The notes under the pieces: model-generated
What the model saw: the letters and a program-made list of their open reading frames with translations, nothing else
Database searches by the model: none
Told to the model about the DNA's origin: nothing
Assembly (NCBI RefSeq): GCF_000003605.2
Contig: NW_003154739.1
Coordinates: 228,766 to 251,507 of the forward strand
Direction: 5' to 3'
Length of the DNA stretch: 22,742 bases
DNA from: Saccoglossus kowalevskii
Lineage: Eukaryota; Hemichordata; Enteropneusta; Harrimaniidae
Part shown: piece by piece, positions 13,764 to 21,400 of the stretch
Layout: each line of letters starts with the position of its first letter
How positions within the stretch are numbered: the first letter of the stretch is position 1
Program-made: the position numbers and the translations under genes

Positions 13764-14092
13764 AATACAATTTAGATCATAGCTAAAGGGACATACAAAA
13801 AACAGTGATGACAATTACAAGTAATAATTACTGGCTCATATTGATTGGAACACCTCAATAAAAATGGCCACAGTCTCCATATTTGATGCTAAAATTTGAA
13901 AATGTAAAGGCAACAGAGGCAGCCTTAAATTTGTTCAAAAGGGTCTTCTTCTTACATTGTTTAAACACATTAAAATGTTTCTTCACACAAAGACGAATCA
14001 CCACAGCTAATTAAAAAATCAAAATTACGTTTTCTAATCCATAATGAATCATTGAACAAAACACATAATTTTAACAATTGTATGAATTTACT

Positions 14093-14249
14093 GGCTTAGT
14101 CTTTTCCACGAAACGAAACGAAATGAACCGAAACGAAATAAAACTATATCAAATTTGTTAACGACATCGAAAATCGCCACGTCATGGAAATAAATAAATA
14201 CGAGTAAACTATAACATGGCATGACTGCCATTTCGATTGACAAAACATG
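14093..14249 (+). repeat. Left terminal inverted repeat arm
   Basis: It runs from GGCTTAGTC through a cgaaacgaaa-type A-rich tract to ttcgattgacaaaacatg. It is the reverse complement of 15639-15843, with substitutions and a gap of about 55 bp. Confidence 0.9.
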
Positions 14250-14471
14250 AAAATTATTAAGAGGTAACCAGTAAATTAACTAATTAAATAAGGCATCGCA
14301 ATAATTAATTAAATACATAAATAAAGTCTGAACCTACTATTTCCAGCTAAACTAAAAATCTATATTGCTTACTTCTAATTAAATCATTGAAATAACGCCA
14401 TAAACCAAATATTAATAGTGTTTAGAAAACTTAGGTTAGCCATGGACCAATTTATTATTTGCTGATGTATT

Positions 14472-15325
14472 ATAATACATAAATTAAATTTAAATTTTGG
14501 AAACGTATTCTGAAAATGTCATCTAATCGACTCGTTTACAAAGCCTATAAAGAGTCTGAAAAAATGGCACAGATAGGAAAACCATGTTTTGCTTTAGCTA
14601 TTAAGAAATTATTAATTAAACACAATATGCATACTGTTTGGGAGAATTGGTTTATCTCCCAAATTATCGATGAAACAACGTTGTTAATTGGAAAGAAAGA
14701 GAGAGATTTTTATTTCAAAAGTTGGAAAGATGCTTTATTTGACGATGTTCGTAGATCCCCAAACAGTAGAAATAAGTTACGAACGTTTCGCCAATTTAAA
14801 ACAAATATTTTTTACGAGAATTATTTGGATATTGTTCGTGTTCCCCTGTACAGACAAGCTTTAACTAAACTCCGGTGCTCTAATCATAAGTTACACATTA
14901 AGACCGGTAGATATTATGGAACTCCAGTGGAAAATAGAACCTGCCAAATATGTATAGATGCTGTTGAAGATGAAACTCATTTTCTGGTAGTTTGTCCAGC
15001 ATATAACCATATTCGAAAACCGCTTTTTGATCGAATTAACCGCATTGAACCACAATTCGAGTTCCTTTCGCCTATCCGTAAACTTACATATATTTTTTCT
15101 CAGGATAACCATGAAATCATCCAAAGTATTGCAAGATTTGTATACACAGCTTTTCAGATTAGATATAATTTGTTAGTGTGAGTTCTCTAATAGGTGAGTT
15201 ATAATACTTTATTTTATTGAGGCGATTAAAGTCACGCCTGTAACTTTCGCATTGTAACCTGTTCCCCCGGGTTAGTGGGGTATATTTCTTTAGAGAAATG
15301 GAAATAAAATAATAATAATAATATA
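14472..15325 (+). mobile_element. 5'-truncated non-LTR retrotransposon (LINE) 3' end
   Basis: The fragment comprises the last part of an ORF2-type protein, a short 3' UTR with AATAAA near 15303, and an (ATA/AAT)-type repetitive tail (15303-15325). The coding frame is open from just after a TAA at 14480-14482, so the fragment starts near there. Short 5'-truncated copies ending in a microsatellite-like tail are typical of CR1/L2-type insertions. It lies wholly within the inverted-repeat element, so it was either captured by that element or inserted into it. Confidence 0.75.
14516..15181 (+). CDS. C-terminal part of a LINE reverse-transcriptase polyprotein
   Basis: This is a 221-codon open frame ending in TGA. 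The in-frame codons from 14483 upstream of the first ATG read like the same protein, so the ATG is probably an internal methionine and not a true start. Residues about 118-145 carry the LRCSNHKLHIKTGRY stretch. The cysteine-histidine knuckle C-x2-C-x8-H-x4-C (CQIC...HFLVVC, then PAYNHIR) begins near residue 142. This combination is typical of the region after the reverse-transcriptase domain in non-LTR retrotransposons of marine invertebrates. The endonuclease and catalytic reverse-transcriptase motifs are absent, so the fragment cannot mobilise itself. The lack of stop codons suggests a fairly recent origin or some constraint. The clade (CR1, L2 or relative) cannot be settled by eye. Confidence 0.82.
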   Translation: MSSNRLVYKAYKESEKMAQIGKPCFALAIKKLLIKHNMHTVWENWFISQIIDETTLLIGKKERDFYFKSWKDALFDDVRRSPNSRNKLRTFRQFKTNIFYENYLDIVRVPLYRQALTKLRCSNHKLHIKTGRYYGTPVENRTCQICIDAVEDETHFLVVCPAYNHIRKPLFDRINRIEPQFEFLSPIRKLTYIFSQDNHEIIQSIARFVYTAFQIRYNLLV

Positions 15326-15408
15326 ATTGTGTATTACCGGTAGCGTCTTTATCATTTTATTATTTGCATACGTGCATATATTCATTACGATTTTTGATTT
15401 ATTTACTT

Positions 15409-15443
15409 GTGTTGACCATAGACCGGAGGGTCTATGTGTTGAC
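15409..15443. repeat. Mini-hairpin bracketed by 8-bp direct repeats
   Basis: catagacc-ggag-ggtctatg (15417-15436) is a perfect 8-bp stem with a four-base loop. It is bracketed by identical gtgttgac copies at 15409-15416 and 15436-15443. It lies in the non-LINE part of the long-TIR element. Confidence 0.6.
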
Positions 15444-15589
15444 TTCTTCTGGAACATTGGCTAATTAGCGAGATGGGAACAGCGCCTCCAACTGCCAGTT
15501 CAAAGTATTCTTTCAAAAATGGCTGACCGCTCACCTTTTTGATTTTATGCCCAATTTTTGTTCGTTTGTGACTCATTTTTGGTCCGTTT

Positions 15590-15629
15590 TTGGCTAGTTT
15601 TAAGTTATTTGGGTCGTTTGGCTAGTTTT
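15590..15629 (+). repeat. Subterminal short repeat of the long-TIR element
   Basis: ttggctagtttt occurs at 15590-15601 and again at 15618-15629, just inside the right inverted-repeat arm. Subterminal repeats of this kind often serve as transposase binding sites in DNA transposons; that role is inferred here. Confidence 0.5.
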
Positions 15630-15638
15630 GGGTCGTTC

Positions 15639-15843
15639 CATGTTTTGTCAATCGAAATGGCGGTCATGCCATGTTATAGTTACTCGTATTTATTTATTGA
15701 GCTGTCATGTTAGTTACTCGTATTTATTGAGCTGCAAACTAAATCTTGTCGAGAAATTTATTTCTATGACGTGGCGATTTTCAATGTCGTTAAAAAATGT
15801 TATATAGTTTTATTTCGTTTCATTTCGTGGAAAAGACTAAGCC
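15639..15843 (-). repeat. Right terminal inverted repeat arm
   Basis: Its reverse complement matches the left arm from GGCTTAGTC to caaaacatg. It holds an internal partial duplication in which agttactcgtatttat occurs at about 15678 and again at about 15712. Confidence 0.9.
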
Positions 15844-15852
15844 GAATTTACT

Positions 15853-19793: not shown

Positions 19794-21400
19794 GTAACTA
19801 TTGCTTGGTTTTCTATTGCAACATCACGACAATCAATAAGGACAAGACTATTTTGATTTAGGGACGTGCAGGCAGTTTTATCGGAACTTCTAGACTTTGT
19901 GCCAATAAATGGCTCCCAGACGGACGGGCCTCGGCTATGACTACATCGCATCACTACCCCCACTGTTGTTGAGTGACTGTAATCGCCTGACGTACTTCTA
20001 AAACCAGGATTGCAGAATTTATTTACACGTTAACTTATAGTCACAGTTTTTTTGTCGCTGGTATGTTGTCTGGTATATCTTACTCAAGTCGTGTATAAAG
20101 ATCACTCTGTTACTAAACAAATTTACGCAATGACCTTGACCTGTAAGCCGGAATAATCTTTGTTCAAATTCATCTCAAAACTTGATAATTTTTGTTTCTT
20201 TTTTTCCACAGATTCAAGCACTTGTACAAGGTGAGTTCGTGGTTCTTCAATATTTAATTTACATCAAAGAACTGTCATTCGAAATGTAATTTCAATAGTT
20301 ATAGAGGTGTCATCCTACAATGTTTTCTTGTATCTCAGTTCTATCCTAGCCAAGTATGGTTGTATTTGACAGAAAAATAAAAGGATGCATTCTGATTATT
20401 GAAAAAACCCTCCAACAGGATTCAATACCACGAAGTTGCTTGTGCATACTGCTAATGGGATGCCATCTTTCCTTTTGTACATCTGGATTCGTGGTTCATA
20501 GCCTAGATGTAGACAGAACAGTCAGTTCTCGAGCTGAAATATTTGAATGACTTTTCTTGTTCTCATGTTTATCCCAACAGTTGTAAGTTGTGTTGAAAAT
20601 GACATGTACATGTGTAATGTATAGTTAGTATATTTCTCGGTGTAAAATATATTATTTAATATATAATTTCAATTACTATAACTTACTAACATGATTTAAT
20701 TACAGTGAAGGGGACTCAATCAAGGTGTTTGTCAGAGTGCGACCTTCAGATAATGAGCAAGAAAATGAACACACCAAGAATCAATGTCTGGTTGTTAGGC
20801 CACCAAATAGTATTGTTGTGTTCAGCAAACCTGAGCCAAAAGTCTTCACATATGATCATGTTGCTGACATACACACAACACAGGTATGTCCAACAACCAT
20901 ACTACAAGTTATTGTTCCTTTTTTAATTACCAGATTTGTCCAGTCAATATAAAATCATTATAGTATGTTTTAAAATTGTTCGTAGCTTACATTGTGCAAA
21001 TTTTAATTTGCACTTTTGAAAAATTGTTAAAATTTTGATTTGGAAGTAATAGTATTTTTTGAATATTATGGTGCAAGGGTTCATGAGGGCAGAAACAAAA
21101 CCAACCACTTGGCATAGTGTCAGGTTTGGTCTGCGATAATACCTACATGTATAATGAATTTCTTGTTTTTAACAATTAAGATTCATAATCATTAAAATAT
21201 TATTTTGACCATAGAAAAACTTCTGAAATTTACGGAAGCACATCTCCTACTAATGGAACAAATATGTTGGTAAATATTCTTCATGGCCATTCTCTGACAA
21301 TAATTGTTTTGTTTTTAACTCAGGAAGGAGTATTTGGAGCGGTTGGGAAAAAGATTATTGAAAGTTGTGTTGAAGGGTACAATGGCACAATTTTTGCTTA
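19781..21400 (+). CDS. KIF15: KIF15-like kinesin-12, N-terminal part of motor domain (partial)
   Basis: Four exons (19781-19793, 20212-20230, 20706-20883 and 21324-21400) join in frame to give the first 95 residues plus two bases. After a short polar leader, the kinesin motor begins at residue 16 with IKVFVRVRP (beta-1). PEPKVFTYDHVADIHTTQ (53-70) and GYNGTIFAY (88-96) follow. The next residues should be the P-loop GQTGSGKT, whose exon lies beyond the window. KIF15 is a plus-end-directed spindle motor that helps keep spindle poles apart alongside kinesin-5. The EPKxFTxDHVAD...TTQ pattern and the divergent KIAA1143 neighbour, as in human, favour KIF15 over other kinesins. Confidence 0.93.
20212..20230 (+). 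CDS. KIF15: KIF15-like exon 2, a 19-nt microexon
   Basis: A strong pyrimidine tract and acceptor (tttttttccacag) precede 19 nt, then the consensus donor AAG|GTGAGT. The exon encodes DSSTCT across its junctions and joins exons 1 and 3 in frame. Confidence 0.82.
20706..20883 (+). CDS. KIF15: KIF15-like exon 3
   Basis: It encodes residues 11-70 with the beta-1 strand IKVFVRVRP and ends at HTTQ with donor CAG|GTATGT in phase 0. A perfect branch-point consensus tactaac (20684-20690) lies 16 nt before the exon. Confidence 0.96.
21324..21400 (+). CDS. KIF15: KIF15-like exon 4
   Basis: The acceptor is ttaactcag|GAA and the donor TTA|GTAAGT (phase 2). It encodes EGVFGAVGKKIIESCVEG then YNGTIFA, with the next tyrosine split by the intron just before the expected P-loop. 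Confidence 0.95.

Follow-up and report, generated by a model that had tools for sequence, protein, structure and literature searches.

A truncated LINE inside a 9-bp-duplicating non-autonomous transposon of Saccoglossus kowalevskii, of a lineage that probably gained its outer arms

Target duplications of 8-11 bp are reported for the Mutator superfamily (MULEs; PMC6446971), and the plant members include elements with tandem terminal inverted repeats (TIRs), in which external and internal long TIRs are present at both ends; acquisition and recombination were also named by the authors as possible origins of tandem TIRs (PMC3310237). In Drosophila, Galileo lengthens its arms when sequence adjoining one arm is copied to the opposite end; chimeric copies occur, and a repair model was described in which the opposite arm serves as template (PMC3573991). 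The Tm1 Mutator/foldback family of root-knot nematodes has foldback-like arms, 9-bp duplications, and MITE-like and non-coding members (PMC3169594).

The locus studied lies in a stretch of 22,742 nucleotides (contig NW_003154739.1, positions 228,766 to 251,507), called here the window as a whole. Its element is like the plant tandem-TIR MULEs in that the duplication lies only outside, with none at the inner TIR, and in having single-TIR relatives and amplified copies; the plant tandem pairs SLMULE18 and SLMULE46 are each of one TIR family, whereas here two families of different sequence are present (PMC3310237), and the common family of inner and outer TIR described for the plant type is lacking. 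Growth of arms by copying to the other end, with chimeric copies and templating by the other arm, would be shared with Galileo; that element, however, belongs to the P superfamily, makes 7-bp duplications (9 bp here) and recruits internal sequence, while the sequence recruited here is external (PMC3573991). Foldback-like arms, 9-bp duplications, and MITE-like and non-coding members are shared with Tm1, which differs in having arms of tandem 14-bp motifs and a member with a Phantom-type transposase, none being found here (PMC3169594). In a search of open-licence papers with few terms, outer ends of one family around the inner ends of another were described in none of the titles and abstract openings listed. 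The locus is read here, with a probability of about 0.8, as a truncated LINE nested in a 9-bp-duplicating non-autonomous transposon from a lineage that has gained outer arms.

The window element and its LINE

The long-armed element occupies 14093-15843 and is flanked by exact 9-bp direct repeats, GAATTTACT (Table 1); this perfect duplication and the inverted arms of 157 bp (14093-14249) and 205 bp (15639-15843) had been reported in an earlier note made from the letters alone, and both were confirmed. When the left arm was locally aligned with the reverse-complemented right arm, the score was 115, whereas none of 200 shuffles exceeded 30; the alignment covers left-arm bases 1-103, after which a deletion follows. 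Foldback was a fair description of this long-TIR element. It contains two arm pairs, one nested in the other. Across 128 aligned bases, the two outer arms of the window copy are 93.8% identical; the left one is 90.5% identical to the left arm of a small element, L053. Relative to the copy L044, most of the left inner arm is absent (about 320 bp after 14249, which aligns with L044 1611, the L044 inner end being at 1276), and about 2.2 kb of the body is missing before 14341.

Table 1. Parts of the window element and its LINE insert (positions in the window).
Feature	Position	Strand	Remarks
Left target site duplication, GAATTTACT	14084..14092	.	Exact match to 15844-15852
Left outer arm, end GGCTTAGTCTTTTCC	14093..14235	+	About 50 bp shorter than right arm (internal deletion)
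Left inner end remnant, ATTGACAAAACATG	14236..14249	+	From junction list
Body, left piece	14249..14343	+	94.7% to L044 1611-1705
Body, right piece up to LINE	14341..14476	+	91.9% to L044 3907-4042
Probable LINE target duplication, left copy, TATTATAAT	14468..14476	.	8/9 with 15319-15327; single in empty relatives
3' end of 5'-truncated LINE	14477..15318	+	(TAA)n tail; homology begins at 14490, after 13 unmatched filler bases
Open frame, 221 codons + stop, C-terminal part of LINE protein	14516..15181	+	232 codons from stop to stop
Probable LINE target duplication, right copy, TAATATAAT, merged with tail	15319..15327	.	8/9 with left copy
Body between LINE and right inner arm	15328..15473	+	Contiguous with 14341-14476 in relatives
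Right inner arm, end ATTGACAAAACATGGAACGACCC read inward	15474..15652	-	Common to free-ended inner family; similarity ends at 15652
Right outer arm	15653..15843	-	Identity 91.1% with left, 64.4% with right arm of L053
Right target site duplication, GAATTTACT	15844..15852	.	Exact match to 14084-14092

Between the arms lies a LINE segment of about 840 bp. The LINE 3' end with an uninterrupted 221-codon frame, as claimed in the earlier note, was upheld, and its limits were moved from 14470 and 15330 to about 14477 and about 15318-15327. Other copies in the same genome are longer upstream and reach a reverse transcriptase domain (RVT_1, E 2.3e-20, in one frame at locus L019); on its own, the window frame had no significant hit in Pfam (zf-RVT E 0.16, from the second codon). 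In a whole-element search in which 40 of 152 candidates were scored, the LINE was found in at least 36 places besides the window, and several copies are closed by TAA-type repeats. Since shared sequence continues upstream of the cut point of the window copy at seven of nine loci (L012-L017 and L019), the window copy is 5'-truncated; the copies at L018 and L020 start further in. A discrete short element starting at 14490, where the matches share a 5' start, was considered and rejected because 7/9 copies continue upstream, and 14490 is only the truncation point of this LINE copy. The length of the LINE target duplication is uncertain because the tail is A+T-rich.

The LINE was absent from all 11 host relatives readable across its site, five outer-armed (L009, L041, L042, L044 and L048) and six free-ended (L045, L046, L047, L050, L051 and L059). 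A GTATTATAAT-type site is single in ten of these, with one base changed in L047, and L046 carries a small deletion there. The site is not shown by L043 and is not covered by L049, L052 and L054; at 1508-1964, near the position of the window LINE, L043 has a 457-bp insert of other origin. The LINE is thus a nested insertion in the window copy, the sole holder among the copies read, and is itself ordinary. A Pack-MULE-like capture, in which the LINE coding fragment was taken up and moved along with the element, is suggested by the position of an open-framed LINE between the arms; it is extremely improbable, with 0/11 readable relatives holding the LINE, the site single in ten, and a LINE tail and probable target duplication at the junctions. 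The capture and co-mobilization considered in the earlier note, and with them the Pack-MULE trait of a captured coding fragment common to copies, are unsupported because, among the copies read, the window copy alone carries the fragment, the outcome that the note itself had named as pointing to a simple nested insertion.

Two end types and mirrored junctions

The inner ends (GGCCATTGAC) and the outer ends (GGCTTAGTC) differ in sequence, and each type has its own members. Eight relatives (L045, L046, L047, L050, L051, L052, L054 and L059) align with the body and with the inner portion of the arms, but no further than 15652 or its mirror position, 14236. These free-ended copies read GGCCATTGACAAAACATGG or similar at the edge, next to unrelated flanks; the flanking repeats are TATCGGGAA/TATCAGGAA in L045 and TACAAGTG/TATCAAGTG, with a one-base indel, in L046, while L050, one of three free-ended copies with both ends read, shows no target duplication. 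Because the edges adjoin unrelated flanks, with flanking repeats in L045 and L046, GGCC appears to serve as an element end by itself. A genome-wide pattern search, which misses copies with further changes, placed inner ends at 20 positions: 12 GGCC-like starts at 0-2 mismatches, seven TTCG or ATCG starts at 3 mismatches (outer-armed copies) and one AGTC. Two inner ends 25.7 kb apart on contig C96 were considered as one large element, which was rejected; they were taken as separate because the flanking 9 bp do not match. The inner pair and body were probably supplied by an older, diverse family with ends GGCCATTGAC.

In outer-armed copies, the shared inner sequence is preceded by GCCATTTCG instead of a GGCC start. 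All five copies read with both outer ends carry GCCATTTCG before ATT in mirror image at the two sides, and both junctions of all five have the same TTCG where the inner GGCC would stand. When scored as a direct repeat, GCCATTTCG matched at 2 of 9 positions in each of three copies tested, and a plain insertion with a 9-bp duplication is therefore no explanation of these junctions. The TTCG-type junction was found at eight loci (the window, C1223, C1343, C1363, C1398, C1614, C2261 and C4259), five of which were read with both ends.

The outer arms themselves are alike at the two ends. All 13 arms compared are 86-93% identical to the left arm of L053 and 63-69% identical to its right arm, the two arms of L053 being only 65.1% alike; L053 is the sole small element found with a full outer arm. 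Left and right outer arms of the same copy share 90-95% identity (5/5), and identities between copies are 93.7% for left against left, 92.9% for right against right and 93.1% for left against right. Since identity within copies is no higher than between them, the doubling of the outer arm is about as old as the group. No copy was recognized as having a one-sided outer arm; for L009, L048 and L049 the reading covers a single end.

Alternatively, this arrangement could have arisen if the inner element had inserted at the middle of a small element that was itself a long, almost perfect palindrome. The foldback-like character of small elements of the outer-end family accords with it; however, the inner junctions show no direct 9-bp repeat in the three copies tested, GGCC is gone from both inner ends, and both outer arms are of one arm type although the arms of L053 differ. 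Such an insertion is considered unlikely.

Runs of CCCTAA, a telomere-type repeat, were seen just inside the end in one arm each of the small GGCTTAGTC elements L055, L056 and L060.

Duplication length and the search for a transposase

Among 11 copies in which both outer ends were read, the 9-bp repeat is exact in six and matches at 8/9 positions in three; in L056 it is displaced by 7 bases, and in L058 6 of 9 positions match. For the double-ended copies with both outer ends (n = 5), it is exact in three and 8/9 in two. The end GGCTTAGTCTTTTCCACGAAACGAAACGAAA was found 111 times in the genome at up to 3 mismatches, and not once when read backwards. Positions were listed for 100 of the 111, among which about 32 plus-minus pairs no more than 350 bp apart were counted as small elements; 20 of these, in contig order and excluding one already read, formed the sample for duplications, about nine pairs lying outside it. 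An exact 9-bp repeat was present in 15/20, and 17/20 had no more than one mismatch; the remaining three matched at 1, 7 and 7 of 9 positions. In the control, 0/380 wrong pairings reached 8 of 9. The 9-bp duplication is a trait of the family. Exact repeats of 6, 7, 8, 10, 11 or 12 bp were found in none of the 20, among them the 8-bp duplication that the earlier note had named as pointing away from MULEs to a hAT or P-type element. Target duplications of 8 bp are made by hAT and P elements, a habit that the 9-bp repeats do not fit.

The duplication length lies within the range given above for Mutator, and the TIRs are long (157/205 bp in the window; for L041-L044, 366-435 aligned bases). The exact 9-bp duplications and the GGC...GCC ends favour the Mutator label for this candidate element. 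From the earlier Mutator-like reading, the 9-bp duplication and long TIRs were found to be family-wide, and a transposase with the same ends was not found. Neither end type was present within about 1.5 kb of the 12 MULE-domain (PF10551) places in the genome, and no MULE-domain contig was among those of the listed ends (100 of 111 outer and 20 of 20 inner), in a search that would miss autonomous members whose ends have diverged or lie farther apart. One of these MULE-domain places, L064, lies between inverted arms of tandem repeats of about 52 bp, which resemble foldback-type arms. A single Merlin (IS1016-type)/IS1595-type place (PF12762) is on C3085, a contig without a listed end, as judged by contig only.

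A coding partner within L041-L046 was also considered and was rejected, no long frame proper to the element body being present. Frames of at least 110 aa, stop to stop, were absent from L041, L042 and L046; L043 has one of 135 aa, almost wholly within its own 457-bp insert, and in each of L044 and L045 a single frame (116 and 123 aa, respectively) runs over the element edge. The inter-copy matches listed are spread over several frames of both strands and include stops, and by eye no frame was preferred.

Direction of change and proposed origin

The 13 copies that reached 300 aligned columns were used for a tree of the shared body, while the window copy (231 columns), L048 and L054 fell short and were dropped. 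Six outer-armed copies were separated from seven free-ended ones with 100% support, and the outer-armed copies were on shorter branches. With the root at the midpoint, which is not independent, the outer-armed copies nest inside the diversity of the free-ended ones, with L045 and L052 nearest. The window copy was placed by its arms, junctions and pairwise identity, the last being 91-97% to six outer-armed copies but also 95% to the free-ended L052.

The direction could be the reverse: the double-ended form would be ancestral, and the GGCC family would have lost its outer arms, the transposase acting thereafter on the inner ends. The split as such, being unrooted, gives no direction and leaves room for this order of events. 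It is nevertheless doubtful, given the short, nested branches of the outer-armed copies under midpoint rooting, the fact that many small elements carry the outer ends alone (111 such ends with no more than 3 mismatches) and the same TTCG in place of GGCC at both junctions in 5/5 copies; the midpoint root on its own only disfavours such a loss.

For the preferred reading, in which outer arms were gained, the following course is proposed. The junction would have formed once, when an inner element was joined to one arm of a GGCTTAGTC small element and GGCC was lost. The inverted inner arms may then have primed or templated a repair or conversion that copied junction and arm to the opposite end. 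A transposase supplied in trans, acting on the outer ends as it would on the small elements, could have spread the double-ended form. The window copy received its LINE at some time. We tentatively suggest, as a possibility somewhat short of even odds, that a long-armed non-autonomous element in this way took on the ends of a small family in mirror image, came under a different transposase and was amplified, the ends having been swapped by arm conversion. If so, one genome would contain the product of such a swap together with relatives of both parents; the redirection of a transposon family by ends taken from another family could be dated here, and the case could serve to test whether end swaps by conversion are promoted by long inverted arms, as proposed for Galileo.

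Two further features were seen elsewhere in the window. An open frame at 20695-20952 on the plus strand, resembling the start of a kinesin motor domain, is a short piece without a Pfam match at E 0.01. Positions 1-848 are a tandem array with a 30-bp unit in 28 copies or, alternatively, a 119-bp period.
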